Both the position numbers and the translations under genes were made by a program. From the NCBI GenBank assembly GCA_026413255.1, contig JAOCZO010000023.1, forward strand, positions 103,913 through 167,912: a DNA stretch of 64,000 bases, read 5' to 3'. Source of the stretch: Fereydounia khargensis (Eukaryota > Basidiomycota > Ustilaginomycetes > Urocystidales > Fereydouniaceae). How positions within the stretch are numbered: position 1 is the stretch's first letter; each line of letters starts with the position of its first letter. Shown here in pieces: positions 5,299-23,467 of the stretch. Under the pieces are notes generated by a model. That model was not told the DNA's origin and did not search any database. It worked only from the letters and a program-made list of their open reading frames with translations.

Positions 5299-7671
5299 TT
5301 CCTACCTCTACCACGGGGCTTTGTCGTTGAAGCATTCCCCTGTCTCTGCTCCCCGACCTTCTCCGAGGACATATTGTACCATACGACAGTGGAGCATCGG
5401 CAGCACTTGACGGCCAAGTCACAAGGGCCTGAACCCGACTCGTGTCGCGGCGTTCGGCCCCATGTCGCCTCAGTGCTTGCCACTGAACCGTACATCAGTT
5501 GCTCGCTCGTCCACCACATTCATTAGCTGTATCGTCCTAGCCGTATGGCCCACCTTCATTTCCCGCTCGCACTCACCCTGGCCTACAATCCATAGTCACT
5601 CTTTCACCCGTGCGTTAGCGAACTGTACTCTCTTAACTTTTACTGTATTTGTATTAACCCTTCGATTCGCGAGAGCAAATAGCGGCTTTTAGATTAGGAT
5701 CCTCTTCTCCTATCCAGGAGTGTATCGTGACCGTGACCAGGCACTCGGTCACTTACAGAACGTATCGTCAGGATCTTGTGTGGGTCGCGTCCGCAGTTAC
5801 AGTCGGCGAGAGAAGTGCAGAGACGGGACCCAATGGAAGGATCACGTCACGCATCAGGTCACCGCATCTGAACGCGACGCGCGTTCCGTTCCTCTGGTAC
5901 AGCCTAACCGAGATTCTCAGGATGGGGGAAAAAGGGCAGGGTCCTGACGCTGTTTTGACACGAGACTTACCCATTCCGACAACGTCTTAAATTCGCCATA
6001 CCCCCAACACTTCGTATGCTTTACTGCTTTTCACTCGGTCACTTGGTGCTGAGCGCAGCTACAGTAGGCAAGCTTTAACCAAGTGGGGGTTAGCCTTTTA
6101 GATTTGGTTGTTGGGAGCTTCCACCCCGACCGTGAGAGGATACACGGCTTAAGTTATCTCCTTTCTCGGCTTGAGGTTGAGCTACTGTCGCTAGCTCCGT
6201 TGGCTACGGCGGCTCGCCAGCCCTGGCCCTTTCTCGCCTTGTGACCAAGCCTTTGTGGCTGCGCTCGGGCCCGGGTCGTGGCCTCGACGAGTTTAGTTTG
6301 AATACAGTACAGTACAGTAACTGTACTGTACTGTACTGTAACTCAGCCTGCGCCTGCGCATTTGGCTTGCTCGTCTTCGCTCTCCACTCTTGTCATCGGC
6401 CAGTCTCCGCTACTGTTACCGTCGTGTCTACGTAAAATTAGAAGTTTGGCATTCTCGGTCTCTGGAATGCGGAGCGTTTCTCTGCGCCCGGCGTTGTCAC
6501 TCGAGTTCAAGTCCCGCTCGCACGAGTCGGAGAGGCGCAGCAGTCCACACAGTTGCTCAATTCGACGTACTCCGATACGGCAGGCTTGCTCTGCATAGTT
6601 TGGTGGCTGCCGGCTGCCCGCTGCGCTGCCGGCTTGCTGCAACATTGGCTTGCCTGCTTCTTCGCATGGGCCGACGCGGAACAGTACAGTAGGTTGTGGT
6701 GCATCGTAGTGCGTGCCTTACGAGCCGATTCGCATCCTCACTTGCCTCAATCGGTCCCTTCCCTCTCCCACCCTGGACGTCTCCTCATCGCCGATTCAAT
6801 TTCTGTGTGGCAAGCGAGCCGGACTAGACTTGCGGGGCGCGTATCGTGTACGGTGGGGCTCTGAGCCCAGTCCTGGTCTCGGTCCCATCAGCGTGGCATT
6901 CTATGACATCTCTCTCGCCCGCGACGTCGCTCGGCTATGTACCAAATGCTTATTCCGATCTTTCAACATGTTTACCCTTTTCTCTTGTCTTCATGCCTTT
7001 CCCTTTCCGGATGCCTTGTATATAGCTAACCATGCTAGCTGAGCGCTCCCACGTACCTGGTTTCTGAATCAAGGAGCTTACCACCATCTCCTGCATCCGG
7101 CTGAAACAGATAACGGCATTCAGCCACGCTTTGCCTGGTTTCTTCCATGCTTTCCTTCCCCCTTCCGTTCTCACTCACCATCGATCGCATCAACAACCGC
7201 ATCTTCCAACTTTCCTGTCAGTATCTTTAGCTTCTTGGACGCCATCTTCGATCCCTGGCCACCTTTCCCTCTCCAGATCACGGTCACCCCACCCCTCAAG
7301 CCAAGCCGATCCGAGACAGGCGCCAATTAACCTGCCCTACAGTGACCAACACTTTCCCAGCCGTCTCACCATCTCGCAGTGCCTGATCCCAATCAGTGCC
7401 TGAGCCTCCGCGTTTCAGTTTGGTGAACCCTTTCGTGGCCCTGCATGAAATAGGTACGTTTCAGTTGAATCCGCCAATCTGAGCTCCTATGCCTCCCTTC
7501 CAATCGGCCCAAACATCCTGGTGTCCTCTTGCTTGGCCATCAACAGCTTTTTCTCTTTCTACAACGTCCCTTTTTCTTCGTCCTACGACTCGTTCTTCTT
7601 CTTTCCAGCGTTGCTGACCCTCATCGACCTTACCCATATTCTTTCACTACCGCCCCTTTTGCTCCGCCACC
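5299..7671. other. Long intergenic region with a TACTGTA hairpin
   Basis: The 2.4 kb between AXL2 and the next gene has no frame I can support as coding. It contains a strong inverted repeat at 6303-6340 (separate entry), an isolated CAGTACAGTAGG near 6681-6692, and pyrimidine-rich sequence from about 7130 to 7670 that probably forms the promoter and 5' UTR of the gene starting at 7672. Confidence 0.6.
6303..6340. repeat. Perfect TACAGTA/TACTGTA inverted repeat (hairpin)
   Basis: Tandem copies of the 4-base unit ACAG/TACAG on one side (6303-6319) are followed at once by tandem ACTGT units (6320-6340). The two arms are reverse complements, so the strand can fold into a nearly loop-free hairpin of about 17 base pairs. 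Related palindromes recur through the array region at 10-22 kb. Confidence 0.85.
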
Positions 7672-9795
7672 ATGCAGCGCTCACGAGTAGTGTCCTCGGA
7701 CTCGATTCATCCCCAGAGGCTCTTCTCTCGTCGACCCATCCCAGAAGCGTTTCGTATTGGCCAGAGTGTTGACTGGAGTCCCGAATTTCTGAAAGGCACT
7801 GCACCGGGCTCACCTCTCGGTTTCCCAAGCTCTCCTAACACCAACAGTATCAGTCCTGAAAGGCTCGAGCCAGATTCTCCAGATTCGCCCAGTCCACCCT
7901 CTCCAACGCTTCGCATCAAGACTCGCTGCTTAGCCAGAAAACCTATCCCAGACTTTTCAACAGCCTTGTCAGCTAAAGAAGGCACAACAAGTCAGCTGGA
8001 CCTGATCGACAGCGTTCCGTGCCCTCTTTTCATGGAAAGAGGCCTCTCAGCATCTTCCGATTCAAGCTCTGGTTCATCTTCGATCCTGGAAAAGGCATCC
8101 CCAGGTGCTATCACCCCGATCACATCGCCGGACGACAGTCTCATCCTTCCATCCAGAACTCACTCTCGTGCTCTGAGTGACATCGCTTCACCATCCAAAC
8201 TCGGCCGTACCCAGAACGGACGGAGGCTCAGGCGTGCTTCAAAGCCGAAAGAAGGTGACATGAGGAAGGAATTTACCGTTGAGCACGGTGACTCTGAGTT
8301 GCGTGCGCAAGACGGACAAGCTACTGAGCATCGCAGGGCCACCTCCGACTTTCTCGACATACACAAGGCTCAGGGTCGCTCGCCCGCCAAGACGCCGACC
8401 GGAGGTTGGAGCAAAGAAGACCCTGATGGAGATGTCGAGGAAGCTATAGCGGCCGCGCTGATTCGTTTTCAGTGGGTACCTGACAATGCCGGCTCCTCAG
8501 GCCCATTGCATCCGGCCCTACTTCGTATCAATATTCCCTCAGATGATGGTGTCGAGATGCTCAAATCTCCGGCCTCTGACTCCGAGATCGTACCATCCAC
8601 GAGCGAGACAGTCAAAGAACGTCAGCAGTACCGCAAAACTGTCGTTGAGACGAAATTGCGCGACGTCTTCACAGACGATGGCTCCCAAAACAAGAACGCA
8701 AGCGCTCAAGCACCTGCCCAGCCAAAATCGTCGGACTCGCCCAAACAGACCGACCCTCTCCCGTCTATTACTTCGGTTGATAGCCTGAACCTGCTGCACT
8801 ACGATTTTCCCCCACCTCCGCGATTGTTGAATGAGAGGCACTCGCACGGTTCATTGAGGAGCCTTGGGGGATTCACCACTCGTAGCATGTTGAGCCCACC
8901 AGAACCTTCTCCTCCCAAGTCTACTATTGGTCCTATAGATGCTGCGCCATCAGTCCCCGGTAGATCGCCTCTGCGCGAGAGGCGCGCCAAGCCGCCGATC
9001 CACATCGTCCTCGAGAGGAAATCCACTTCGTCTCTCTCTGGTCGAAAGATGTCTCTCCCAATTCTGGATGGCGACAAAGGTTCGCCAGCTACTTCTGTGT
9101 TCTCGCCACCACCTTGTCCTCCTCCAAGCGCTCCCCTTCCTGATCTGCCTACCCCGAGCTCGGAGGACGGTCCCTCTTCTGCTACATATAGAAGGCACCG
9201 GCCATCTGTGTCTGCCGTTCCGACCTTCTCTAGAAGGTCATTTCATTCGAGCGAAGCTAGTCAACCTGGTCCACCGTCATCGGCAGCCCTTCAGCTACGT
9301 AAGCGACCATTCCTGAAGAGCACATCGAACCCCTCTTCGACTATCGTTTCGCCGCTTTCAGCATCATCAAGTCCAAAATCACGCACAGTGCCGCTTGACA
9401 CGCCGCCACAATCGTCCAACAAGCCGGGATTTTCACCCACAGCCGCTATACCCTTTCAGCCAATTTCCAACTTTACTCGAGTTGAGTCGGACGACTATTT
9501 CCGTGCTCTCGAGGATGCATTCACTCCCCCGCCGTCTGCACGGACGTCGAAGGGAACAGTGTCGTCCAAAGCCAAGCTTGATGACTTGGTCCAGTGTTTG
9601 AGCCCTTCATCGGACTCGTTCACACCACGTTGCTTCATGCTGGATGGTGATGCCGGGATCCGGAAGGCTGTCAGCAGGGACCAGAATCAACAGCCACCGC
9701 CGTCTGTCAAGAACAATGTTCGTCCAGCATTTCCCCATGATATGCCTGTTGGGGTCGAGTGCGAGGACCAGATCGTCTATGGTCTCGCGCTCTGA
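7672..9795 (+). CDS. Ser/Pro-rich protein of unknown function
   Basis: A single-exon frame of 707 residues starting at an ATG in good context (CCACCATGC). I do not recognise it. The protein is rich in Ser, Pro, Arg and Lys, with many SP/TP sites, prolines in runs (SPPPCPPPSAPLP near 480) and no signal peptide or membrane segment. Near the start there is a compact segment, RRPIPEAFRIGQSVDWSPEF, and around residues 84-100 a related RKPIP; these short RxPIP motifs may be docking sites. Composition suggests a largely disordered phosphoprotein such as a cytoskeletal, septin or signalling adaptor, but this is inference. Length without stop codons on this GC-rich strand, codon-like composition and a long leader support it as a real gene. 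Confidence 0.7.
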   Translation: MQRSRVVSSDSIHPQRLFSRRPIPEAFRIGQSVDWSPEFLKGTAPGSPLGFPSSPNTNSISPERLEPDSPDSPSPPSPTLRIKTRCLARKPIPDFSTALSAKEGTTSQLDLIDSVPCPLFMERGLSASSDSSSGSSSILEKASPGAITPITSPDDSLILPSRTHSRALSDIASPSKLGRTQNGRRLRRASKPKEGDMRKEFTVEHGDSELRAQDGQATEHRRATSDFLDIHKAQGRSPAKTPTGGWSKEDPDGDVEEAIAAALIRFQWVPDNAGSSGPLHPALLRINIPSDDGVEMLKSPASDSEIVPSTSETVKERQQYRKTVVETKLRDVFTDDGSQNKNASAQAPAQPKSSDSPKQTDPLPSITSVDSLNLLHYDFPPPPRLLNERHSHGSLRSLGGFTTRSMLSPPEPSPPKSTIGPIDAAPSVPGRSPLRERRAKPPIHIVLERKSTSSLSGRKMSLPILDGDKGSPATSVFSPPPCPPPSAPLPDLPTPSSEDGPSSATYRRHRPSVSAVPTFSRRSFHSSEASQPGPPSSAALQLRKRPFLKSTSNPSSTIVSPLSASSSPKSRTVPLDTPPQSSNKPGFSPTAAIPFQPISNFTRVESDDYFRALEDAFTPPPSARTSKGTVSSKAKLDDLVQCLSPSSDSFTPRCFMLDGDAGIRKAVSRDQNQQPPPSVKNNVRPAFPHDMPVGVECEDQIVYGLAL

Positions 9796-10088
9796 TCGCA
9801 GCTGCATCCTCTTTTATTCGATCCAGAGTGGTCCTCGCAAGTGAATCAAAGGGCTTACCAAAATGAGGTCTCCATCATCGCATTTTGTACTGTAGAACAA
9901 ACAATATCTGTCTTTTACTGCTCATCAAGTCAAACACTTTCATTCTCGTGAGCATCTAGTTCCTTTTTGGACAAGCCGGAAAGCCTGACGGTGATCAAGT
10001 CACGAACGGGTAGAAATGAGTTATTGTCGGTGTTTCTCGAGTGTGGGAGGCTGGTTGCGAGGCTGGTTGCGAGGCTGGGACGTGCATG
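9796..10088. other. Short intergenic stretch with a 12-bp tandem repeat
   Basis: No gene is seen. At 10047-10080 the unit GAGGCTGGTTGC occurs twice in full and a third time in part. Confidence 0.6.
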
Positions 10089-10452
10089 TCATGCCACGAG
10101 TTCCCCGTTGACGGTTATGATGCGATAGAGGGGGATCAGATACTGCCGTACGTCGTGTTTTGATGCGATAATGAGCGACTATTTCATTGCAGCCTCACGT
10201 TCTGGACGCAGAGAAGACTTACGATGACGTTGTCCGACTCGACTGCGATATGGTCGTTCGTGTCATACTGCGATCAAAATGTGACGGAAATGGTGTCAGT
10301 TGGAGGTCTTCAAATGATGGTGGTCAGAATCGACGGACAGATATAAAGTGGCCCCAATGGAATCTCATGTTCTCGTCTATCCACTTGATCTCGTCTCCGG
10401 CCTCGAGATCCTCGAGCAACGGATGAAAGGGTGTCCTGTTTGCACCTGTCAT
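10089..10452 (-). CDS. Small three-exon SH3-like array protein, member 1
   Basis: The first copy of the small-gene family. Exons are 10452-10339, 10267-10223 and 10142-10089, joined in phase 0, giving 70 residues. Exon 1 has a 17-residue leader and then EAGDEIKW...WGHFIS, the family core G-D-x-[VI]-x-W ending G-x-F-x-x. Exon 2 encodes 15 residues (YDTNDHIAVESDNVI) that start with the usual aromatic. Exon 3 encodes YLIPLYRIITVNGELVA and a stop. The donors are GTCCGT (weak) and GTAAGT and the acceptors CGCAG and GGCAG. Function is unknown; a small beta barrel is inferred. The gene is antisense to its next neighbour. Missing-base support comes only from the shared gene plan, not from homology search. 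Confidence 0.65.
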
Positions 10453-10898
10453 CGTTTCTCGCAAAGATCAGACTTGCTGTTGATGTGACGTCCCTTTCCC
10501 TCATCTTTCAAGCGTAGCACCTCTTATTATACAGTATGGCTGTCGACGATCGGAAGAGAACACCGCCGGGCAGTCAGTCACAAAGCTTGCGAACATGACC
10601 AAGGTGCTAGCAGTAGAAGTGCAACTCTCACCTTGAACCTCGAGCCAGTGAGAAAGCATAGTCGTCTAGCATGAGAGATTCCATCTCGAATCCTCCGCAA
10701 AGAGGCGATGAAAAGCAACAGAAAGTTTCATGCGCTGATTCTGCCTTCAGCAGAGAAGAAGACACGAAGAGAGAGAGAGAAGATGTCGAGAGTCATTGAC
10801 GTACAATGGCGGTTCTTCTTCTTTTTCGGTATTGTCCTTCGAGCTTCGTGCCGATTGATGTTAAATCTTGGTATCCTTCCCGACTTTGCTCTGTTCGA
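10453..10898. other. Divergent upstream region of array members 1 and 2
   Basis: A 446-base stretch between head-to-head array genes. It contains ATACAGTATGG near 10531 and purine-rich runs near 10758-10785. I see no further exon with the family core. Confidence 0.5.
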
Positions 10899-11205
10899 AT
10901 GACCCAATTGAGCCGCGGCTGGACCGTGTGTGGCCCAACCGAATATCCCAAAGGAATCGAGTTCTGCCTAAGCAACTGGCAAGCGCGCCAAAATGCGACT
11001 TTGGTAGCTACAGTAAGTGCTACTAAAACGAGAGGGTTGACTGTCCTGTCGGGAACGGGGTGGGGAAGAGGTGTACTGTATCACTGGGAAAGGCTTATTG
11101 CAAGCAAAACAGGGTTTCTGGCTTCTACCTTGTGGTCTGTATCGTGGTCAGGATCGCGTGCTAGACCCACTGTACCAGTTATCAACCGCACCCCGAACTT
11201 TATGA
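10899..11205 (+). CDS. Small SH3-like array protein, member 2 (first intron absent)
   Basis: Exon 1+2 is continuous (10899-11012, 38 codons) and ends at a GTAAGT donor; exon 3 is 11152-11205 after a GTCAG acceptor. The product has 55 residues. The first part (MTQLSRGWTV...KGIEF) corresponds to exon 1 of other members and the next 16 residues (CLSNWQARQNATLVAT) to their exon 2; NWQA recurs in exon 2 of member 6. The intron that splits these parts elsewhere is missing here. The family tryptophan is one step displaced (GWTV), so this is a divergent copy. Exon 3 encodes DRVLDPLYQLSTAPRTL. Function unknown. Confidence 0.55.
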
Positions 11206-11710
11206 GGCATACAGTACGTTATCAACGGTGCTCGTGACCAAAGCGAGTGCCACTCTCCGTTTAGCTCCGAAAGAGGCTGAATTGGCTTGCAATTCCTAGC
11301 TCGAAAAAGCTCCGGTTGACAACGCCTCTTGTGGGAAAAATCGAAAGTTAGCCTACTCGAAACCTGCACATGCGTATACTTACAATGTGAAACGGCACAA
11401 AAAGGGCAAGCCTGCCTATCCCTGACGCCGTACCACGACCAGAGCACCAAGAAATCACGTTCTTTCCATGTAGGCTCGATATCTACTGTACATTGAGGCT
11501 CAATACGAAATCACGGAAATGAGGTGAGATGGTGGCGTCTCTGGACAAAAGGTCGGAAGTCACATGTCGAGGTCTCTGAGCAGGGTCCTTTGTTGAATAG
11601 CGACTGAGCATCAAGTATATCTAGTGGCTTGTTGGCGGGAGTCTTGTCGCTCTTCATCGAGGACCTCAAGTCTCTCTTCGCCTAGCATCCAAACTCTTCA
11701 GCACAGCAAC
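11206..11710. other. Intergenic region with a possible minus-strand exon relic
   Basis: Palindromic ATACAGTACGT (11209-11219) and CTACTGTACAT (11483-11493) lie here. On the minus strand near 11460-11384 a frame reads NVISWCSGRGTASGIGRL and meets a GTAAGT donor, resembling an exon 1, but it has no ATG and a spacing error in the core, so I treat it as a relic at best. Confidence 0.4.
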
Positions 11711-12034
11711 ATGGCCTACAGCCACGAGTCAGGTTTTACGATCGGTGACTGGGTTATGTGGAAGGATTCGACCGGCCACCACGAGGGCAGGATCGTGCTC
11801 GTGAGCAGTGTTCCCCCAAAAAACGGTGACAAGACAACAGAATTCTGACACACAGATTGAATTGGGTTGACCTCGGATGTGCAGTTTGATTCGCGACACA
11901 TCGCTAGGGTTCTTTCGGGAGGACAGATGGTGAGCCAAACCGTTACCCAGTGATCAAAGGAGCATTCTGGCTGAACGCTGCCCGTTGCACTTTCTCAGTA
12001 CTGCGTCAACGTGAGCTATCTCCAACTTGCCTGA
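11711..12034 (+). CDS. Small three-exon SH3-like array protein, member 3
   Basis: Exons are 11711-11800, 11885-11929 and 11999-12034, all joined in phase 0, giving 56 residues. Exon 1 encodes the clear core FTIGDWVMWKDSTGHHEGRI and ends before GTGAGC. Exon 2 encodes FDSRHIARVLSGGQM between TGCAG and GTGAGC. Exon 3 encodes YCVNVSYLQLA and the stop after TCTCAG. Introns are 84 and 69 bases. Hydrophobic residues alternate as in four short beta strands, and the GDxVxW turn fits an SH3- or Tudor-like barrel; this fold is inference. The protein is neutral to slightly basic, with no signal peptide. Function unknown. Confidence 0.75.
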
Positions 12035-12866
12035 CCTCTGGCAAGTTCCGAGCGCAGGCGGACTCATCTCACAAAGCGTCACCGGCTCTTCCTACCGAGG
12101 CGTAACGTAAAGCGACTCATGGCTCCTCTCCGGTTCACTTCGCGTCCATACGAAAAAGAGAAAAGAAAAAAAAAAGTCGTGGTCAATGTACCCTACTTGT
12201 CGCAAGCCGTCTTGTGGGTCGCTCGGCCCTAAGCGGGCTCAAATCGATCCCTTTCGGTCCCAGCTGCTTACTAAAAGGGCTCCGGCCGGAACCGATACCC
12301 TTTGTTGTGCAATTCATGAGTGTCTGACTTAGGCTCAGGGGCGAGAGGACCCCATCAACCGACTATGCTTTGGCCAAAGGGCAGTAGTAAAGTACAGTAG
12401 CTTTGCCCAGCACATGAAGCACGGGGCGTAAAATGCGCCACATTGACTTTCCTTCAACAGCTGGACAAAGAGGTAGCATCAGAGCGCTCTGCTTCGTGTC
12501 TGCGCATCCCGGAGATAGGACGGCGAGACTTATCCTGCGCATTCGTTACATCATAACGGTGGGGTCGTCCTTTGTCCTCGTGACTTCCTGGCCAGCTGGG
12601 CAATTGATCCACTCGAGCGATAAGGCTCATCTTGATTAGATTCAAACAAGGCTCATTGTATCATGCTCACGCACGGCGTCGCGTCCACCTTATTCGGTGA
12701 GGACCCAAGCCTACCCGGGGCAACCATAGCGTCGGGGTTGGAATCAGATGACTCTCTCGTGATATAAAGTCATGCAATGGTGGCGATCCAGTGGCGAGCA
12801 GAAAAGAGCAATTCTCTCAAACCCAACCCTCTTTCCACAAAGAAGCTCCTACACGCCCTCACAGCT
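12035..12866. other. Intergenic region between array members 3 and 4
   Basis: An 830-base stretch without a supported gene. It holds an A-rich run near 12155-12177 and AGTACAGTAGC near 12393. A minus-strand piece near 12640 (SLIARVDQL) resembles an exon 2 but has no partners. Confidence 0.5.
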
Positions 12867-13176
12867 ATGCATCAATTTGCTAAGGGACAGCACGTCTGGT
12901 GGCTCAGCCCTCAGGGTTGCGTCCGCAGCGGCTTCTTCATCGAGGTGAGTGACACGTCTAAGATCATGCCGTAACAGCATTTTTACTGATACGAGAATCT
13001 TCTCGGCTCTGATAGTATGTTGAAGATGATCTATGCCGAGTGGAACACAAGGACTTCGGCATTGTGAGCACACTCAGCCACTTCTCCTCACTTGTACAGA
13101 CTTGGAAGCCAAACTGACTGTCAGTTGTGTGGCTGGGCAGCTCATTCTCGAGGCCTTCAAGCTGCATCCTCAGTAG
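12867..13176 (+). CDS. Small three-exon SH3-like array protein, member 4
   Basis: Exons are 12867-12944, 13016-13063 and 13141-13176, phase 0, 53 residues. Exon 1 reads MHQFAKGQHVWWLSPQGCVR and then SGFFIE, a textbook family core (F-x-x-G-x-x-V-x-W, ending G-F-F-x-x) before GTGAGT. Exon 2 encodes YVEDDLCRVEHKDFGI and exon 3 LILEAFKLHPQ followed by TAG. The acceptors are ATAG and GGCAG and the introns 71 and 77 bases. A longer upstream frame starts at 12777, but the ATG at 12867 gives the same start position as members 5, 6 and 9. Function unknown. Confidence 0.75.
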
Positions 13177-13640
13177 CAGCTTTCTCGCTCTCGCGGCTCG
13201 TTTCAACGTGTGTCCGTCTACGAAGAGCCGACAGGCGTACCGGCGGAACTTCCGATCTCGGGGAGCGCCCAGCGACTCAATGTGACTCAAGAACTCAAAT
13301 GAGCGCATGACGTGATAGGCAGCTTCCGCTCCAGCGTTCGAACAGCTGCTACTCAGAGAGCTTTGACTGATGACCAGAGTCCATGTAGTGCATCACAGCC
13401 TGACCCTAGCCCGAAAAATCTAGAAAAGCCGCCGAATGACGTATTGCTCGTCTCAGATACAGTGAGCTGTGCCACAACGAAGACAAAGGGTCTAAGGCTC
13501 TCGCTCTGCTACACACACTGTACGAGCTACTTGACAACGGGCTGTTGTCTCAGTTTGTGCACGGGGCTGAATATGGTCCACTTCCCGGCAGATGCCGAGC
13601 CTGCTGAGGGTCTCGTGCCGAGTTAGCCCCGCTCAGCATA
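13177..13640. other. Intergenic region left of the MITE, with weak exon-like pieces
   Basis: Two pieces have splice-like borders: one ending NDVLLVSDT before GTGAGC near 13461, and one starting FVHGAEYG after CTCAG near 13554. They resemble exons 2 and 3 of the array genes but I find no exon 1, so no gene is called. Confidence 0.4.
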
Positions 13641-14062
13641 CTCGTTTTTTCACTGACGCATGGACACGGTGACTAGCTTGCAAGGGTCGATTGTGGACAG
13701 CGCCGAGTGATCCGTTATGAGAAGTCAAGGAGACATCAAGCAATTGTGGACGGTGTTTCATTCAATTATGGACAATGTGTGTGTACGCAAATCAAGTTGA
13801 AGGGTGTCCGCGCGCGCACCCTAGCTGAGCGCTCTCAACGTGTCTGCGCGCACACCCTCCAGTCCATGGATCAGCGTGCTCGCGCGCGCACCCTCAATTC
13901 AAATCAAAATCAGCGTAGACACACACGCTGCTCGCAATTGACTGGAACATTGTTCGCAATTGACTGATGCCTCCTGGACTCTTCATAACGGATCGCTCGG
14001 CGCCGTCCACAATTGACCTTTGCATGTTAATCACCGTGTCCAGACGTCAGTGAAAAAACGAG
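13641..14062. mobile_element. MITE-like non-autonomous DNA element with long terminal inverted repeats
   Basis: The ends are perfect inverted repeats of 18 bases (CTCGTTTTTTCACTGACG at 13641-13658 and its complement at 14045-14062). The inverted similarity continues inward for roughly 120 bases with scattered differences; TGGACACGGTGA and GATCCGTTATGA are shared by both arms. The element is flanked by TA on each side (13639-13640 and 14063-14064), as expected for a TA target-site duplication of the Tc1/mariner superfamily. At 422 bp it has no transposase. The middle (about 13800-13925) contains diverged repeats of a GCGCGCACCCT-containing unit. TA duplication of two bases alone is weak, but the long inverted arms are clear. 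Confidence 0.8.
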
Positions 14063-14382
14063 TACTTAGTTTGCGAATGTTAATTTCGGGGTGTGCCGTA
14101 TCCTAGTTCACCAGCTGGGAAACCCTTGAGGCAGAGCCAAAAAAACAGCATGGTTGACGACTTTAACGACCAGCTGAAGCCGACGACTCGTGACCTCGAG
14201 ATCCTTTCAGGATATGATAGCCTTCAACCAGGTCACAATGGTCAGCAGACATTCTTTGTGCAGGCGTCTGCGCAGAAACAAAAGGTTAAGTAGACGAGCA
14301 ACTGTGGCTCACGACCACTGGAACAAAACCGAATACAAGCAAGCCACAGAGACGCAGGAGGAACAAATTAGCTGACGACAAG
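14063..14382. other. Intergenic region right of the MITE
   Basis: A 320-base stretch. A short frame at 14150-14293 (MVDDFNDQL...) lacks the family core and I cannot support it as a gene. Confidence 0.5.
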
Positions 14383-14835
14383 ATGTACACGTTCAGGCCG
14401 GGTCAACGAGTGTTCTGGTTCGAAGGCAGAGACTGCAAACGTGGGCTTTTCGTCTCGGTAGGTGATTCTTTCTATTCTGCTCCTTTTCCACCCACAACCG
14501 TCTCACGGCCGAAAAAACAATCAATGCAGTACACCAGCGGCGGGAGGCGCGCGAAGGTGCGAATAGGAATCTATCCCCAGGTAAGTGAGTGGAATCGAAA
14601 GGCTTGTGCCAGACCGTCTCTGACTTCAGCCCCGAACAATCACGTACGCCTCCAAAAGACATACTTTGAAGTGATAGTGAGTGTGAAGCGTGGACGCAGC
14701 CGAATCGTCAGAACCAGCAACGCCCAAGCTTTTGCGTCAGACAGGGAAAAGCGTACTCAATGGCTCTTGTTCGTTCCCATCAAGGTTGAGGTGGATACCC
14801 TTCTGCTTCAGCCAGACCATGACTACAGCGACTGA
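14383..14835 (+). CDS. Small SH3-like array protein, member 5
   Basis: Exon 1 (14383-14457) encodes MYTFRPGQRVFWFEGRDCKR then GLFVS, a perfect family core, before GTAGGT. Exon 2 (14530-14580) encodes YTSGGRRAKVRIGIYPQ and ends at GTAAGT. The best exon 3 is 14785-14835 (VEVDTLLLQPDHDYSD), after an AAG acceptor. That gives 57 residues, but it implies a second intron of 204 bases, longer than in the sister genes, so an extra exon is possible. Unusually, the whole span is one open frame of 150 codons, so an unspliced message would also be translated to the same stop. Function unknown; exons 1 and 2 are well supported and exon 3 less so. Confidence 0.65.
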   Translation: MYTFRPGQRVFWFEGRDCKRGLFVSVGDSFYSAPFPPTTVSRPKKQSMQYTSGGRRAKVRIGIYPQVSEWNRKACARPSLTSAPNNHVRLQKTYFEVIVSVKRGRSRIVRTSNAQAFASDREKRTQWLLFVPIKVEVDTLLLQPDHDYSD

Positions 14836-15644
14836 AGCCGATCTGATCCGGCCAGCGCCTTCTCTAGTGGCCAAGATCGAGACCGTCAGCCACCTTAGTT
14901 TCCGTCATGGTGCCATACATCAGAGAGGCTGACGCCCTACACCGGTTCAAGCTTTCCAAAGTCTACCCAGTCAGCTCATCTCCACCTAAACCCTCGGCGA
15001 CGAGCGTTTCCTCCGTGTTCTTTGCACTTTAGCATGAATGAATCGAACCTTTCACGAAGCGAAACTTTACGCAGACGATTGCTAGCCAGCTCGGACGTTT
15101 CTGTGCCTTGGGCAAACCTGGCCACTTTGACTTACAGCACAGGTCTCCATCAACACCTTATCAGGCTCATTCGTCCTCGTGATCTAGGCTTCGTCTTCAG
15201 ACTCCTCACCGACTGACTGTGCGCGGCTGTATCTCGATAAGTTGGGCTCCGCACCCTTCGCCCGACCAGGCTTTATGAAGTCACTAGCTGTTGACTGAAG
15301 CTGTTCCGGAAAGTGGCTAATTCTGATCGATGTAGGTTGCTGTAACTGAGGTCAACGTCCTTTTCCAGGCGTAGTGGCCGAGGCGAGGCTTGAGTCGTGA
15401 GCAGCCTGCACCTGAAGAGTCCCCAGAGGAAATCGAGACTGCACAGAGCTGAATCGCTTCTATCATCACGAATGTACAGTAGAGGGGCTGTGAGCGACCT
15501 TTGTTACTTAAAAACGTATCTTTCACTCCCGCAGGACTCCCAATGCCAACCATCAACACGGCTCAAGTGCCGACTTCCTCGATCACAGCCATCTTTCCGT
15601 TTGACCCTCCATTCCTCCGACACCGCAAGCAAGCAAGACTCGGT
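14836..15644. other. Intergenic region with an orphan exon-3-like piece
   Basis: At 15336-15374, after a GATGTAG acceptor, a short frame encodes VAVTEVNVLFQA and a stop, matching the size and pattern of exon 3 in the array. I find no exon 1 with the core upstream, so this looks like a remnant of a lost copy. A CAGTAGAG palindrome half lies near 15475. Confidence 0.45.
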
Positions 15645-16066
15645 ATGGGCTTCGTTGCGGGAGATCGTGTCGCCTGGATAGAAAATGGCAAGGAAGCCAA
15701 GGCGACCTTTGTCGAGGTGCGTATTGAGACCAGGCCTGTCCTGCGCACTTTGGTCGTATAGGAAGAATACAGTACTTACGGCAACTTGGACCCTATGCTG
15801 TACGCTTGATTTTGATCCTTTTTCACGCAGTACGTCAACAACTGGCAGGCAAAAGTCAGTCTTGGTCGTTACTGCTTCGTAAGTTACAGCTCGCGATGGT
15901 CATTCAGCAGAAGAGATCTCGCCCGGTGAGGCTGACACACTCCTACTGACACCTGTCAAACCGACTCGCTTAAAACCGGCTGTGTCGCGTTAAATCGTGA
16001 TCCATGGCGATGCAGATACTGCTCGACGCAAGCGTACTTTACTACGACCTCCAATCCAGTCAGTGA
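15645..16066 (+). CDS. Small three-exon SH3-like array protein, member 6
   Basis: Exons are 15645-15716, 15831-15878 and 16016-16066, phase 0, 56 residues. Exon 1 encodes MGFVAGDRVAWIENGKEAKA and TFVE before GTGCGT: the GDRVAW core is intact but the usual glycine before the final F is Ala-Thr. Exon 2 encodes YVNNWQAKVSLGRYCF before GTAAGT. Exon 3, after GATGCAG, encodes ILLDASVLYYDLQSSQ and a stop. A longer frame could start at 15543, but the ATG at 15645 matches the start position of other members. Introns are 114 and 137 bases; the first contains ATACAGTACTT. Function unknown. Confidence 0.7.
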
Positions 16067-16867
16067 GAGATCGAACAGAGTGGGTCGATACGATGAGAGC
16101 GGGAAGGAAGCGGACTCAAGATCCGGTGTCTTGGAAAAGGCACTTACTGTACTTCGCCCGATTGGAAGCGGGTTCATTTTCTCCCTCGTCAGGGTGCGGG
16201 ACGCTCTCGGCCGGAACGCGACATTTCCTCTTCGCTTTTTCCTCTTTCATTCATTGATTCATACCCTGCCCGATCCTGTAGCTTCAATCTCCTACGAAAG
16301 AAGCGCTACCCTCCATTCGGTAGATGCAGTATAGTGTAGCTACATAATCTCGAGTCGAGTTCGCGGTTGCGTCGTCCCCAAACTGCGAGCTTTCGAAAAG
16401 ATTGGTTGTCACAATTTGTTTCGTTGGCAGGTCTTCCCTGCGCTTGAGACTCTCTTCTACAGTATAGTTTCAGTTTAAAGCTGCCAGCCAACTGAAAGTA
16501 TGGAGCGTGCCAATTCACACGACCGGAAGAATAAGGAAATAGACCTCGCGACGACGGAGAACTTTTCTCGCGCGTGACTCGCAAGCAGGCTTCCACAAGC
16601 TCGTTGTTGCTGCCTGTGTTACTGTGCTTCATGGACCTCAGATTTCAGGATGCTGTTATAGGTGAATGTGACCTTATACTTTCAGCTTGTGAGGAAAACT
16701 GCGATAAAAGAGAGAGGGTGTGGAAAGGGACACGATGCAACGAGCAACGCCTCTGATTCTACAGTACCCCTTGTTCCGTACCATCTGCGCGTTGCGTCGG
16801 AAGCATTGCACGCGCATCCATCAGACGATTTCCTCGAACACAACGTTGTCGGATTTCAGCGACGCGA
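16067..16867. other. Intergenic region with TACTGTA-type palindromes
   Basis: About 800 bases without a supported gene. It has TTACTGTACTT near 16145, CTACAGTATAG near 16459 and CTACAGTACC near 16759. Frames on both strands lack the family core and other motifs. Confidence 0.5.
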
Positions 16868-17503
16868 ATGACTACCTGGGGTCAGTTCCGGGATGGCGAT
16901 CGGGTCCAGTGGTTTGAAGATGGGAAGCGTCAGCACGGGATATTCCTCAGCGTAAGTCTCCTCAGTCGCCCAAGCGGTTGTGACTCTGGCCTCTCAGAAG
17001 ACAGGTGTGATTAGAACGCTAACGCAGGTCTGATGGCCACCAGTCATACGCAGGAATTGCTGAAGTAATGTGTGTGAACACTCGCCAAAAGGTGGGTATC
17101 AGTTCGGAGGCCACTTCTCCAGTACGTCCAGCGAAACTGACCAGCTATTCACGGACATACTGTAACTCTCGACGTGGACGATCCGGACTGAGCCCAGCAC
17201 TTTATCAGAGTGTGTGAACTTCGCCATTTCGACCACGAATACGAAAGCGACGAGGGGGAAAGTAACGGCGGCGATCGAGACGATGAAAGCGAGGAGGAAG
17301 CGGAGATGCCAGGCGACGACACAGACGCAGAGGGAGAAGTTGACCCCAATTGGGAGGGTCACGAGGAGGATGCTGAGGGCGAGGTTGATCCGAATTGGGA
17401 GGGCGATGACCAGGACGCTGAGGGAGAGGTTGATCCAGACTGGCAAGGCGACGACGATGATGAAGCTCAGTCCGGGGCTGATTCGAGTAACCACAGTCAC
17501 TAG
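16868..17503 (+). CDS. SH3-like array protein with acidic 15-residue repeats, member 7
   Basis: Exons are 16868-16951, 17044-17091 and 17198-17503, phase 0, giving 145 residues, the longest of the family. Exon 1 encodes FRDGDRVQWFEDGKRQHGIF, a perfect core, before GTAAGT. Exon 2 encodes SYAGIAEVMCVNTRQK before GTGGGT. Exon 3 starts after a CCCAG acceptor with HFIRVCELRHF, the usual last strand, then runs into a strongly acidic tail. The tail has three tandem 15-residue units of type DAEGEVDPNWEGxxx (45-bp repeats at 17324-17368, 17369-17413 and 17414-17458). So one member of the array has gained a long acidic domain, which could bind basic partners such as histones or ribosomal proteins (inference). 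Confidence 0.75.
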
Positions 17504-17963
17504 CGAAAAAATCATGGCTGACGCCTGGAGACCCACTAGGCCCTAGGATAAACCAGTGCGCTTACCAATTATCCCCAAAACATGCTTGTGCGGCTTGTTG
17601 CGGGCAGTTACCGACAAAGCCTAACCCAAAGAGCTCCCACCATCGATTCTCTCTCGTTTAGGAATTTCAAATTGAGCTGGGTTCGGTTGCTGAGCTCACC
17701 TCCACAGACCAACGAAATGAGGTGGACTTCGCAACGCAGGCTATCGACTGAGCCATGACGATTGAAAGCAAATAGCCTTGGCCGTAACCGGGGTCCGAGG
17801 CGGAACGGTCTACCGCTCGGTGATCGCCGGATCTCGGACTGCCGATGAGACGTGGCTTGACCTTGGCTTGTCTCCGCTCATCACTCATGAGCGATTGGAT
17901 TGACCGTTGAGGGGCGCTCTGATCAAGGGGGTGTGCTAATTACGTACATCGTCAAACAAGTCA
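17504..17963. other. Intergenic region between members 7 and 8
   Basis: A 460-base stretch. I see no supported gene, repeat or RNA in it. Confidence 0.5.
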
Positions 17964-18242
17964 ATGGCCGGGTGTGCTTGTGGCGAGCAAGTAGACAATG
18001 AATCTCAATTCAGACGCTGCCCAGCATTCTCGTCTTACAATGCCAGGGGTGAGGCAAGTGACAAGGTTGTGTCCATCGACAATTACGCGGGAAAGGTTGG
18101 TATTGGCCATTTGTCGCGACCATGTAGTGTATCATACGGGTGCCATTTTTTTGATGAGCTTCGGAACATAGCGAACGTTGCAAATCACTTTCAATCGCAG
18201 TGGGACCTGATAACCGTCACCACCAGCCTCTCCAGAGACTAA
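17964..18242 (+). CDS. Divergent small array protein, member 8 (first intron absent)
   Basis: A continuous first part (17964-18095, 44 codons, MAGCACGEQV...) covers what other members split into exons 1 and 2; the second half begins with the usual tyrosine (YNARGEASDKVVSIDNYAGK). It then meets a weak GTTGGT donor. The last exon (18201-18242) follows CGCAG and encodes WDLITVTTSLSRD. The spliced product has 57 residues. The family tryptophan is missing (GEQVDN), so this copy is diverged or decaying. The intron keeps frame and has no stop, so an unspliced 92-residue product is also possible. Confidence 0.4.
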   Translation: MAGCACGEQVDNESQFRRCPAFSSYNARGEASDKVVSIDNYAGKVGIGHLSRPCSVSYGCHFFDELRNIANVANHFQSQWDLITVTTSLSRD

Positions 18243-18479
18243 ATTAAAAACATGTTGTGGTATCCGATGACAATACAACGGACGGAAATGGCTGACAGGC
18301 TCTCCGAGGATGCTTTTAGAAACAGACCTTTCGGCAGCTCAATGGCAAAGCTTACAGCATCAATGGCACGACAACTCTTTCAGACTCGTAAGGTACAAAA
18401 TCTGAGCGGTTGGTCTCTCCATCTGTCTCTTTACTCCTCGTTCGTACCTCCTCGAGCTGTATTGTGGACTGAACGAAAC

Positions 18480-18832
18480 ATGCCGAGACGACCGCCTGAT
18501 CCGGACTCAATCTTTATCGGGGACACCATCCGCTTCTTCTTCCAAGGACGTTTCGGATCCGGTATCATCATCGGTGTAAGTCTGGATCTTGGGGATACAG
18601 TACTTCGGCGGGTATTTGTCTTGGTGGCATAAATTGACTGCGGCCGTGCTGATTGACGTTCCTTAGATATCTCGTTCGCTCATCTACAGGGTTCACGACT
18701 TGGAAACGAAAGAAGTGGTAAGCTGGTAATCAATCAGCAACGCCGCGCCAACGACCCAAGGCTCACTGACTCCCGCTTTTTTCTGGCATGTCACCACAGA
18801 TTGAGATCGAGTTCGAGCACATGATTTTCTAG
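18480..18832 (+). CDS. Small three-exon SH3-like array protein, member 9
   Basis: Exons are 18480-18575, 18667-18717 and 18800-18832, phase 0, 59 residues. Exon 1 has a proline-rich leader (MPRRPPDPDS) and the core IFIGDTIRFFFQGRFGSGII then IG, with Phe in place of Trp. Exon 2 (ISRSLIYRVHDLETKEV) is bounded by CTTAG and GTAAGC. Exon 3 encodes IEIEFEHMIF and TAG after CACAG. Introns are 91 and 82 bases; the first holds ATACAGTACTT. An in-frame upstream extension to 18252 exists but has no counterpart in the family. Function unknown. Confidence 0.7.
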
Positions 18833-19159
18833 CCAATGGACTCAGGATAAGATAACGAGGATACCCTCTAGATCCGACGTGCTCCGGAGCGTCATGCGAG
18901 ACCCTTCCATCCCCATGTCCCCCTCAGATCCCTCTCCAGGCCTCCTACGAATTTGAAGACTGTTCACCTCACAGACTCAGACAGGCAAAGCTCCTTACCC
19001 CTTTTTCTGAGAAACATGAAGGCTTTTTGAACATTTCGATCGTGCGGGAGGGATTGTATGAAACACCACAGCTACCTCAACGCCGTCTGACGGAGCTTTC
19101 AACGCTGGCAGTGAGTAGAAAGAGAAAGTCTCGAGTGACCCTACGCTGGTTCCACCTCT
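18833..19159. other. Convergent intergenic region, members 9 and 10
   Basis: The 327 bases between two converging array genes should hold both 3' UTRs. I see no coding frame or repeat. Confidence 0.5.
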
Positions 19160-19498
19160 CTATTCGCTGTCTGACGAAGTGAATGAATCGGAGAAGGCAT
19201 CTGCATCGGCACCTCGTAACTTGGTGCTCTTGATGCGCCACTGTAAACATGTGAGAAAGCAAGTTAAGGAAGTGATGAAGATAACGAGAGTTTAGGAAAG
19301 ACATCATGCAGTACCTTGGAGCCAGCAGAGTCTTCAACCCAAGCCCAGGGCCAGTCGGAATACTGTGCAAAGGGAGGTCAGAATCTGTTATCAGACTTGA
19401 GGCGCGAAGGAAAGGTAAAAACTCACGCCCAGAAAGGTGCCGTACTTGCACTCTCCACTCGACATCCACTTGACCCTTTCTCCGGGAGCGAAAGCCAT
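19160..19498 (-). CDS. Small three-exon SH3-like array protein, member 10
   Basis: Exons are 19498-19427, 19362-19315 and 19240-19160, phase 0, 66 residues. Exon 1 encodes MAFAPGERVKWMSSGECKYG then TFLG, a perfect core, before GTGAGT. Exon 2 encodes YSDWPWAWVEDSAGSK, between CACAG and GTACTG. Exon 3, after TTACAG, encodes WRIKSTKLRGADADAFSD and a short Ser/Asp-rich acidic end. Introns are 64 and 74 bases. The acidic tail is a smaller version of that in member 7. From here the array runs on the minus strand. Function unknown. Confidence 0.75.
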
Positions 19499-20165
19499 CT
19501 CTGACGTAGGAATTCTGAGGAAGATGGGGCCTGTGATGTCGATGCGGCGATGATCGCGCTTATATATTGTGCAGGACAGACGGAGGGTGGACTGGAAAGT
19601 GTAAGAACGAGTCTGATTTCTGGCAGACTCTTTTCAGATGCCAGTGCGAAAAGGTGTCACACCCTGGAAGTTTATTTTCCTGCACAGTCACTTGACAAGG
19701 CCCTCATAAAGTTGATGAGCACCTGCCCTAGACGGAACGCAGTGGCTAGTAGCTGTAGGTGCAGTGCTGCGCGAATCCCATCGCATTGAAATTACCGTCC
19801 TTGAAGAGGCTTTCTTGAGCATCCATGTCGAGGTACGAAGAAGAAACGCGATTGTACAGAAGGTCTAGGTACATTGGCTGCGTATCTCCGATCTCATTTT
19901 TCTCCGTTAAGGGACGCAGCACGTACGAGACGGCACACTATACATGCTAGTGCTTCAGCTTTTCTTCCTGCGTAGTGAGTTGTCACATCAGTCGTGCTGT
20001 TGGATCAGGAGGTGGACAGAATGAGCATCATGGAGAGAGGAAAGAGCCTAATTGTACAACATTGAAGGTCAAGGGGGCAGAACCTCTTTTGAAAAGCTGA
20101 GCACGCGCTCCATGAGGGACGAGGGTCACGCAGTGATCCAAATGAGACAACCAGAAGAGTTGGGC
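19499..20165. other. Intergenic region between members 10 and 11
   Basis: A 667-base stretch with no frame carrying the family core. No RNA gene or repeat is evident. Confidence 0.5.
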
Positions 20166-20517
20166 TCAGGGGTAGGGCGTATCTCGAAGCTTTTTCAACC
20201 CCCAGACCCTTCGATTCAACTGCTCGTAAGGCAACATTGTCAGTTGACGACAGATCAAGATCACATGGCCAAGATGTTGAGGGCTTCGGGGAGCAGCCGA
20301 AGGAAATGATAACTCACCAGAACGTTGCTCCCATACACACGAAGCCTGACAAAATCTCCGTCAAGATACTGTTTGGACCGGTCAGATCGAGGGGAAAAGA
20401 GATTCGAATGGCAGTCGTGCTTACCTTTTCAAAGACGCATATCACCTTTTTGTCATTTTCGTAAAAGAAAACCAATTGACCAGAGAAGAAGAAGGTCATA
20501 TCGGGTCGTGACGCCAT
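20166..20517 (-). CDS. Small three-exon SH3-like array protein, member 11
   Basis: Exons are 20517-20425, 20368-20318 and 20219-20166, phase 0, 65 residues. Exon 1 encodes TFFFSGQLVFFYENDKKVIC then VFEK; the core is G-Q-L-V-F-F, with Phe replacing Trp. Exon 2 encodes YLDGDFVRLRVYGSNVL between ACAG and GTGAGT. Exon 3, after GAGCAG, encodes LNRRVWGLKKLRDTPYP. The frame of exon 1 stays open upstream to an ATG at 20859, which would add a 114-residue Ser/Thr-rich leader (MDPRNIYGIK...); I prefer the ATG at 20517 because it matches the other members. Introns are 56 and 98 bases. Confidence 0.7.
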
Positions 20518-20912
20518 CTCTCGTGACTTTGATCCGCTCAAGGACTCGGAATTGAACAAAGAAGGCGAATGCTGAGCAGGTAAGGGTGACTGTGTCGATA
20601 GGACAGTTGTGGTAGCCTGGTCGTATGTGGCAAGACGGGCGTGACCTGAACCTTGGCGAATGTCGATAGGTGTCCGAGATCGCCTTTCTGAAGAGCTCGA
20701 GATGCTAAAGGCCCTCTGAAAACTGATATGCTCTAGCTTTGTCGTGTTGGGGCTCACCAAGAAGTGGTCCGAAGTGGCATTTCCAAAGGTACGCCTTCCA
20801 GGGCGAGCGTGGTGGCCAGAATGACTGGGTTTGATGCCGTAAATGTTCCTTGGATCCATTTCCGATCCCTAGGCACTTCGTTGACTGAAGGCTTTGGTAG
20901 CCTGGAAGAAGC

Positions 20913-20940
20913 TACTGTACAGTACAGTACTGTACAGTAC
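20913..20940. repeat. Nested TACTGTAC/GTACAGTA palindrome cluster
   Basis: Alternating TACTGTAC and AGTACAG units overlap for 28 bases and form several perfect palindromes. It lies between array members 11 and 12 and echoes the hairpin at 6303-6340. Confidence 0.8.
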
Positions 20941-21097
20941 CTACAGATTTCAGAGTAAAGCAAGTCGCGTTTTGGGAAGAAAGAGGGAAAGAGCCAAGTG
21001 ACTTAACATTGGTCAACCCCCCGTTCGGTATAGGAAGGGAGCGCGGACTATCTGCTTAAGCCATCTCAACTTCCTGGTCAAGCGCCGGGTCGGTCTT

Positions 21098-21576
21098 ATG
21101 GTTCATTGTTGCCTTTGTTCGGAGGGCGAGTGCAGGTGGCTATCGAGCGCTCTCGGACGCACGGAGGTAAGGTGGGTCCCGCTCGGACACGGACGGTGGC
21201 GGTTCATTGCTGCGCACTGGATCGCTTCCGCGGAATGGGGAGGGGATATTTGTCGTCCCCTAAACTGGTGGCTTCCTGGGGCTTGAACAGCTCGAAAATG
21301 GAAACAAGGCTTCCATTGGATCATGCGATAGCGCAGAAGGTGAACGGTAGCCTCGTGCGAATATGGTCGGACGTTGCTAGGACACAGTCGAGATCCCCTC
21401 GCAGACAAGGGAGGCTTAGCCGTGTCCGTGCTCGGAAGGCAGCAAAAGTAGTGTGCTTGGCATCAACCCTTCATCTTTCCACGCGTCTGGAAATCCCGTC
21501 CAGCGAGACCGCACAGGTCTGCGATTGGAAGGTGGAAATGAAGGCTCACAAGGGAATCAAAGGAGGTGAGAAATGA
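21098..21576 (+). CDS. Possible divergent array gene (uncertain exons)
   Basis: A possible further copy on the plus strand. A candidate exon 1 (21098-21166, MVHCCLCSEGECRWLSSALG then RTE) ends in phase 0 at GTAAGG. A candidate exon 3 (21517-21576) follows CACAG and encodes VCDWKVEMKAHKGIKGGEK and a stop. Between them, after a GCGCAG acceptor at 21337, the frame KVNGSLVRIWSDVARTQ looks like exon 2, but no GT donor sits at its end. The core is one residue short (G-x-x-x-W). This may be a decayed copy or a coincidence. Confidence 0.3.
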
Positions 21577-21755
21577 AAATGATGTGGAACATTCAGAGCA
21601 TTTGTTGCGCTAAGAGGAAAGACGTAGTTTGTGAAGGAAAGAGTCGGAGCCGCGCCTAGATCTTGAAGAGTCTCGCACGAAGAGGTGAAAGTGACACGCG
21701 AGGGAGCGCATGCTGGCGAGGTGGACGTGACCTCCTCCGTTGACATAAAGCCCGG

Positions 21756-22073
21756 TCAGCGTTCGGCAATAACATCGACTGGAGCGATGACATACTGGCA
21801 CGACATATGAGGTCAGTGTTTCCTACGTCATAACAAGTCAACCGATTCACCTCACATCATTCTGCGTATAGTAGCAATAGATTCGCACTCCTACACCAGT
21901 CTGATACTGTGCTCACCGTATTAAATGTCAGCTTAAGTTACTCTACAGTCGTAAGTGGCATGCACGGCTAGGCTGAGACCTATACTTACGCCGAACACCT
22001 CACCTGTCCTGATCAGGCGCCCGTCATCGAAGAAGTTCACGACGGCACCGACTCGAAACTTGCCAATAGCCAT
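21756..22073 (-). CDS. Small three-exon SH3-like array protein, member 12
   Basis: Exons are 22073-21990, 21906-21856 and 21794-21756, phase 0, 57 residues. Exon 1 encodes MAIGKFRVGAVVNFFDDGRL then IRTGEVFG; the core is F-x-x-G-x-x-V-x-F with Phe for Trp, before GTAAGT. Exon 2 (YQTGVGVRIYCYYTQND) lies between CACAG and GTGAGG. Exon 3 (YVIAPVDVIAER) follows GCCAG. Introns are 83 and 61 bases. Frames extend upstream to 22163 but the ATG at 22073 matches the family. Function unknown. Confidence 0.72.
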
Positions 22074-22524
22074 TGCTGATATCTCTACGGTGGCGGAAGA
22101 ATGGCCAAGGGACAAGTCAATCTCAGGAGAAGGGACGACGAGGGAGCTTTCGAGGACACGCACTCTGCAACACCTTTATAGGTATAGGGGAACAACATTT
22201 GACTTTGAGAACAGGGACTCTTGGCTAAAACGTGGAGAGCATTGGGACGCTGGAACACTACTTCGAGCTACAGTACTTGGGAAAGATAGGGCCTGCCCTG
22301 CAGAAAATCACAGCACGCAACAAAATGGCGGACTTGCTCGGCAAGCCGACCATATCGAGCTACGGGACTCGGTAAGCACCAACAGTGAGGGTACTTTGGC
22401 TTGATAGACGGGAAAGAAACCAGCAAGCCGTACGTTCACAGGGTGCTGGTAATGCCTTGAAAGACCGACTGGCTTTGCCTTGACGATGAAGCCAGTTTCG
22501 GATCACCCGAAAATGTGATCAATC
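22074..22524. other. Intergenic region between members 12 and 13
   Basis: A 451-base stretch. CTACAGTACTTGG lies near 22270, and a short ADHIELRDS piece ending at GTAAGC near 22373 resembles an exon 2 without partners. No gene is called. Confidence 0.45.
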
Positions 22525-22899
22525 CTACATGGAGAAAGTATCGGGAGAGGGACGTAGCTGGTCGATGTCGACCGTGAACTGGAAATTGAAAGTCAAAATG
22601 GTGAGGAGCGTGGGAAGCCAATGCGTTAGGTATCAAGTACCGCAGCTATTCTCTGCTTTCGCTTTCAAACTACTGAGACGAAGACGAGTGACACTCACGA
22701 TTTGCTTGAGATCAATGTCCCAGACCGAAACCTCTCCGTTCTGGACTTCCTGCTCGAGCAGCGTCATGCATCGTCAGACATATTTCAGGCTCGAAGAAGC
22801 CAACTCTGACTGACTCACTCCGTAGACAACGCCCCTGCGCTCAGCGCCCCAGTCATCCTCCCAGATAACGCTGTCCTTGTCGGTGAAAGTGTACGCCAT
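22525..22899 (-). CDS. Small three-exon SH3-like array protein, member 13
   Basis: Exons are 22899-22819, 22749-22699 and 22578-22525, phase 0, 61 residues. Exon 1 encodes MAYTFTDKDSVIWEDDWGAE then RRGVVYG; the core is K-D-S-V-I-W, lacking the usual glycine before the acidic residue, and ends G-V-V-x-G before GTGAGT. Exon 2 (EVQNGEVSVWDIDLKQI) lies between AGCAG and GTGAGT. Exon 3 (FTVDIDQLRPSPDTFSM) follows TTCCAG. Introns are 69 and 120 bases. It is the last copy before the conserved genes begin with GLE1. Confidence 0.75.
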
Positions 22900-23467
22900 T
22901 TCGAACGGAGATTGGTGTGGGTTTTCTTCTTTGGGAGACTAGTACTTTGACGTTCTTGAACTCGACCTCGAGAAAAGCAATTGGGGGGATTCCTTTTATC
23001 GTGTGAGATTGAACGTGCCCGGCGTTGACTAGTGCCTGGCATCCGAGTGACAAATCAAGTGCTCCTTGCAAGGAATGCTGTAGATTGTCCACCAGTACCA
23101 CTAACGCATGGCGTTGATAGCGTCACAAAGCGAGCGCCAAACGTCAGCCCCGAGATCGTTGACTGATAGCGAAGCCCTCAAAGGCTTGTCGGGACGTGCC
23201 GCTGCCCTAAGGCTATCTGCGACCTGACCACCGTAACGGAATCACCTAATATTCAGCCCCTTTCCATCACGGAGGGATCTTGCCGGTGACGCATCACGCA
23301 CGCTATGGTCACACGCTGCGCCGCCGCCATCACGCGGCACCTTTACGGGGCACATGGTGGCCTAGACCCTGTTCGGCAAAGGATCGATTGATTAAGCTTT
23401 ATGAAGTGACCTCCGAGGGTCATGTGTGATTGCGATGATGTTGCAAGCTTCTTACAGTGCATGGACG
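22900..23467. other. Right border of the array region
   Basis: 568 bases between the last array gene and GLE1. A minus-strand frame at 23101-22900 contains GHVQSHTIKGIPPIAFLEV, which loosely resembles an exon 1, but there is no room for exons 2 and 3 before member 13. Otherwise no feature is seen. Confidence 0.45.

Follow-up and report, generated by a model that had tools for sequence, protein, structure and literature searches.

An array of tiny three-exon genes in Fereydounia khargensis, probably encoding SH3/Tudor-like small barrels

Introduction

Do the short open frames crowded into one part of a fungal contig form a family of genuine genes and, if so, what kind of protein might they encode? 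The question is raised by positions 10,089–22,899 of a 64,000-nucleotide stretch of Fereydounia khargensis DNA (hereafter, the window), which covers positions 103,913–167,912 of contig JAOCZO010000023.1 (C23) in an assembly of 10.46 Mb and 40 contigs. A reading of the sequence alone had proposed at least twelve diverged mini-genes in this interval. The array is real: eleven tiny three-exon genes are present there, with a common gene plan and a common core pattern. With moderate confidence, we favour the view that these and at least one neighbour form a local family, 12 or more small protein-coding genes in all, which would descend from one three-exon founder, encode an SH3/Tudor-like barrel, and provide diverged binding modules.

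Results and discussion

Gene plan and extent of the array

The eleven genes were read by eye and placed by script (Table 1). Each starts with ATG and an exon 1 of 24–38 codons, followed by a phase-0 intron, exon 2, a second phase-0 intron, and exon 3. Exon 2 comprises 15–17 codons in all eleven, and exon 3 comprises 10–26 codons except in member 16868, where it has 101. The exons measure 30–303 bases and the introns 49–137 bases; because most exons are tiny, the array is easily missed in annotation. The core G-[DEQA]-x-[VI]-x-[WF] in exon 1 is common to the window members, with K in place of G in member 22899. The products are single small domains of 53–70 residues, with one of 145. Along the interval, one gene on the minus strand is followed by six on the plus strand and then four on the minus strand.

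The position of the array, its three-exon plan with phase-0 introns, the core (save for 22899), the length of exon 2, and the product sizes all agree with the sequence-only reading. So does the claim that the DNA is barely similar: a search for repeats of at least 18 nt returned matches that are short or unrelated, with no direct repeat family found in more than one member. The count of at least twelve genes within the interval had to be revised, since eleven are supported there; the twelfth, of the same plan and with an exon 2 of 18 codons, lies outside the window, 1.8 kb to its left and beyond an AXL2-like gene. The statement that exon 2 usually starts with Tyr or Phe applies to eight of the eleven window genes (8/12 with the outside gene) and fails for the rest.

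Tests against chance

A strict automatic three-exon scan of the 64-kb window produced eight models, all within 11.7–22.9 kb and none in the other ~51 kb, compared with a mean of 0.01 and a maximum of 1 in 200 dinucleotide shuffles of the window. Applied to the rest of the contig (105 kb), the same scan produced none. Three of the eleven window genes escaped it: 16868, because its exon 3 is long, and 10452 and 19498, because their donors (GTCCGT and GTACTG, respectively) violate the donor rule of the scan. The latter two were modelled by eye and surface once the rule is relaxed to fit these two. When the 168-kb contig was scanned with wider limits, ten models were obtained, of which nine are array genes (16868 being recovered) and one is the outside gene on the left; 60 shuffles gave a mean of 0.17 and a maximum of 2.

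The members were also scored in a leave-one-out profile test against 528 relaxed models of exons 1 and 2 on the contig, which included ~350 scored non-member models. Eleven of the 12 members outscore all of these ~350 except, in most runs, two; from the full-profile list, we take these two to be incorrect models that include parts of the exons of 12867 and 16868. Apart from wrong models built from the members' own exons, no further gene above 7.3 bits was found among the 528 models. The codon score was best in frame 0 of the six frames in 11/12 members, in a comparison that penalises stops in the other frames.

The starts of the genes were examined for promoter motifs. TATA[AT] occurs at −107 to −68 before the ATG in five of the 12 members (Table 1), compared with 2.3% of random 125-base stretches and 0/8 other gene starts. 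That the array consists of chance open frames or of decayed copies without a product is very unlikely: the shortness of the exons and the frequent alternatives for exon 3 would be in keeping with such an origin, but the excess of models over the 0.01 expected, the blind detection of 11/12 members, and the promoter signal all argue against it.

Conservation and divergence

The mean pairwise identity of the 12 members is 18.7% (range 7.7–35.3) in a comparison of paralogues of one genome, where age and rate of divergence are not separable; the fast divergence and the arms race raised in the sequence-only reading are thus no more than possibilities. Adjacent members are not more similar than non-adjacent ones (permutation p 0.25). 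Conservation is highest in hydrophobic and Gly columns (F, G, V, W, G, F, A, V, I, and L), with F/I/L, V/I, and W/F each kept in 12/12 members and G in 11/12; a second G is found in 10/12 and a V/I/L column in exon 2 in 12/12. Exons 2 and 3 contain four hydrophobic columns versus a mean of 0.57 in realigned shuffles, a count that none of the 60 shuffles matched and that was helped by the choice of exon 3 by eye.

For relatives elsewhere, the 10.46-Mb genome was searched with the pattern F..G[DEQ].[VI].W, which catches 6/11 window members, so that diverged members could escape it. This pattern gave 14 matches versus seven in a backward control: six in the array, one in a neighbouring 707-codon frame, and seven on other contigs, and none of the eight outside the array appeared member-like by eye. 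With W changed to F, 14 matches were obtained versus 17 in the control; two of them correspond to member 20517 and to the outside gene, and inspection revealed no member among the other 12. No second cluster was found in the genome with these patterns. Protein database searches returned five proteins, all of them unspliced frames matching this locus. The protein P0004 (58% identity) was rejected as a relative because it corresponds to the outside gene read without splicing. The open-licence literature searched yielded no account of a comparable array.

As a tentative alternative, the members may be ancient paralogues that change slowly and each have a fixed role, so that the low identity would reflect age and no arms race. 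The open frames and the plan are kept in 12/12 members despite the low identity, the lack of greater similarity between neighbours fits old duplications, and the few database frames found are, by eye, identical to the window or one residue off. Counting against an old array are the failure of the patterns used to find a second cluster and the TATA-type starts in 5/12 members; TATA-type promoters are more typical of regulated, changeable genes.

Predicted fold

The members probably share an SH3/Tudor-like small barrel, with the introns located after strand 2 and strand 3. This fold is favoured because of the alternating hydrophobic columns, the weak Pfam matches seen only in the forward direction, and the match to the Hva1_TUDOR profile. 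When Pfam matches were listed at E up to 10, with filters that drop most matches above 0.1, six of the 12 members gave eight weak matches, none of them significant: MS_channel_2nd (twice), TrmI-like_N, SH3_retrovirus, SH3_12, KOW6_SPT5, DUF2642, and WD40_RFWD3. Such matches were obtained for five of ten members read forward versus none of the same ten reversed. Searched against the PDB, the array profile gave four matches, headed by a Tudor domain (E 0.37); the remaining three bear the names of unrelated proteins. A search of PHROGs, made with the consensus only, gave two weak matches of unknown function.

The weak SH3_retrovirus match (E 0.069) was the sole hint that the members might be integrase or retroelement pieces, and this candidate was rejected.

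The sequence-only reading had also considered a chromatin-reader family. A role as methyl-lysine or methyl-arginine readers would suit the Tudor-like pattern and the Tudor domain that headed the PDB profile search without reaching significance. However, a full aromatic set, such as the cage of a methyl-lysine reader, does not appear to be conserved: beyond the core W/F column (12/12), only a Y/F column (8/12) is mostly aromatic. Moreover, the sole match to the TUDOR model of Pfam (PF00567) in the genome, in an exon-blind search, is in a 1098-codon frame on another contig (C5:454222). This role, which gains no specific support from these results, appears improbable. The array proteins likely share a small barrel with the TUDOR family, but 0/12 members match PF00567.

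Comparison with Hva1_TUDOR and KOW

We compared the array profile, using hhalign, with alignments of Hva1_TUDOR (PF11160, DUF2945), KOW, SH3_3 (an SH3 family), and CSD (a non-SH3 control). A Hva1_TUDOR match was present in 22 of 395 bacterial genomes, and 22 of the 23 loci were used for the alignment; the other sets comprised 25/30 loci for KOW, 20/30 for SH3_3, and 30/30 for CSD. The hhalign probabilities were 80.5 for Hva1_TUDOR, 17.6 for KOW, 4.1 for CSD, and 0.6 for SH3_3. Hva1_TUDOR scored 26.9 versus a maximum of 14.5 in 60 column shuffles and 5.2 when reversed, and its probability was between 68 and 82 in all 12 leave-one-out runs. KOW scored 18.0 versus a shuffle maximum of 16.3, over 36 columns. 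Judged by the scores against the shuffle maxima, Hva1_TUDOR alone of the four families stands clear.

The first hairpin of the bacterial Hva1_TUDOR proteins, F..GD.V.W...G.[VI], is also found in the array proteins. In contrast, the ~15 residues seen between strands 2 and 3 in 21 aligned bacterial proteins are, by eye, absent from the array proteins, and the C-terminal half of the bacterial members is not matched. None of the 12 members was listed for PF11160 at E up to 10, under the filters that drop most matches above 0.1, or reached the curated cut-off of 24.1 bits. A PF11160 profile search of the F. khargensis genome, which was exon-blind and in which the controls gave no matches either, also returned none. 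The KOW domains, including those of SPT5, have a GD.V hairpin in the same register as the array, and weak Pfam matches to KOW6_SPT5 and KOW7_SPT5 were obtained, but the W of the array is missing from the KOW sequences aligned and the match is not significant.

The HVA1 gene of Cryptococcus, in the portion of its published description available to us, has three exons and two introns and encodes 75 residues that form a barrel-like β-sheet resembling Tudor domains (PMC5008624). Like the predicted products of the array, Hva1 is a stand-alone small Tudor-like protein made from three exons, whereas it is encoded by one gene and the array is a cluster of genes. When the F. khargensis genome was searched for a canonical HVA1 gene, four one-mismatch sites were obtained versus eight in the control. 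The array resembles an Hva1-like gene and could have arisen from one, although its members do not match the family profile.

Weighing the interpretation

We infer the fold, the type of founder, the binding role, and the regulation as follows. The founder would have been a three-exon gene that encoded one SH3/Tudor-like barrel, closest in kind to the stand-alone small Hva1_TUDOR proteins, and its local duplication and inversion would have given rise to the present array and its strand order. The diverged copies might serve as binding modules that keep one fold but differ in their partners (peptide, nucleic acid, or cofactor); this function is a guess, and differing partners seem likeliest because the core columns are kept and the others vary. 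Some members could be made on demand from the TATA-type promoters, and the acidic tails on two members could add an interaction arm.

A number of results weigh against this interpretation. Exon 3, the weakest part of the gene models, was picked by eye among up to eight alternatives. Member 22899 is undetected blind in the leave-one-out test, and the exon-1 profile alone, with each member left out in turn, gave more than 10 bits for only 5/11 members and is weak for the other six. Identity in exons 2 and 3 (13.0) is not higher than in realigned shuffles (12.8), and 7/12 members have no TATA match. As for the fold, no significant Pfam match was obtained for any of the 12 members, only three of the eight weak matches are to families named SH3 or KOW, and the profile consensus matched no Pfam family; nothing significant was found in NCBIfam for the five members tried, or in the PDB. 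The Hva1_TUDOR alignment spans 22 columns of the exon-1 hairpin only, and global alignment gives a low probability (7.1). CSD, the non-SH3 control, scored 14.8, slightly above its shuffle maximum of 13.4, and SH3_3, at 10.0 versus 13.0, is at shuffle level. Of the SH3/Tudor-like assignment in the sequence-only reading, the hydrophobic columns, the forward-only weak matches, and the hairpin shared with Hva1_TUDOR speak for it, and the library and PDB searches did not bear it out.

Alternatively, diversity itself might be selected, with modules that each recognise a target of their own (a molecule of a virus, a transposon, or a partner) in a self/non-self or anti-parasite repertoire. The single cluster of many members with a constant core and a varied remainder, and the absence of a further cluster among the matches to the patterns used, would suit such a repertoire; however, Pfam detects no known effector domain in the members, and we consider it unlikely. 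Slightly more doubtful still is the narrower proposal that, at a single locus, selection has diversified mini Tudor-like recognition modules into a self/non-self or anti-parasite repertoire of a kind not described before.

The array suggests that whole clusters of tiny genes split by introns can occur in fungal genomes, unrecognised by family libraries and visible only by their common gene plan. Under diversifying selection, the set would represent a recognition repertoire of a new kind in fungi; otherwise, it would still be a family of small stand-alone proteins that has no name and is near Hva1, itself a protein of little-understood role.

Gene models and surroundings

Table 1 Members of the array in the window (coordinates are window positions; TATA positions are relative to the ATG)
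Member	Strand	Exon 1	Exon 2	Exon 3	End of span, with stop	Product (aa)	TATA	Remarks
10452	−	10452–10339	10267–10223	10142–10092	10089	70	TATAA −79	Unusual first donor GTCCGT
11711	+	11711–11800	11885–11929	11999–12031	12034	56	TATAT −95	
12867	+	12867–12944	13016–13063	13141–13173	13176	53	TATAA −104	
14383	+	14383–14457	14530–14580	14630–14671	14674	56		Sole member with best codon score outside frame 0
15645	+	15645–15716	15831–15878	16016–16063	16066	56		
16868	+	16868–16951	17044–17091	17198–17500	17503	145		Long acidic tail; three 45-base repeats in exon 3 (17324–17458) encode an acidic 15-residue unit three times
18480	+	18480–18575	18667–18717	18800–18829	18832	59		Top leave-one-out model has exon 2 one codon shorter at its end
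19498	−	19498–19427	19362–19315	19240–19163	19160	66	TATAT −68	Ser/Asp-rich end; second donor GTACTG
20517 (or ATG 20499)	−	20517–20425	20368–20318	20219–20169	20166	65 or 59		Top blind leave-one-out model has a shorter exon 1
22073	−	22073–21990	21906–21856	21794–21759	21756	57	TATAA −107	
22899	−	22899–22819	22749–22699	22578–22528	22525	61		

The array lies in an ordinary fungal setting. Pfam domains detected in the window are He_PIG, GLE1, OGG1 N-terminal, F-box/YccV, NOB1, TIP41, NOP14, VPS41, FAD oxidase, phosphatase, clathrin light chain, and eIF3 zeta; the name AXL2 for the He_PIG gene is our tentative assignment. The 707-codon open frame (7672–9795), which has no Pfam match, lies between the AXL2-like gene and the array. 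Members 12867 and 14383 are separated by an inverted repeat (13639–14064) with arms of 146 nt that are 82% complementary and 134 nt between them; it holds three 22-nt GC-rich copies at a spacing of 36 nt and looks like a small non-coding transposon of the MITE type. The heptamer TACAGTA/TACTGTA occurs in 87 copies on the 168-kb contig versus ~4 in 20 shuffles, and 20 of its 32 window copies fall within 9800–23300 (examples are found at 20913–20939 and, outside that range, at 6303–6340). Further along the window, one open frame (31904–34432) combines F-box, transglutaminase-like, and YccV-like domains.

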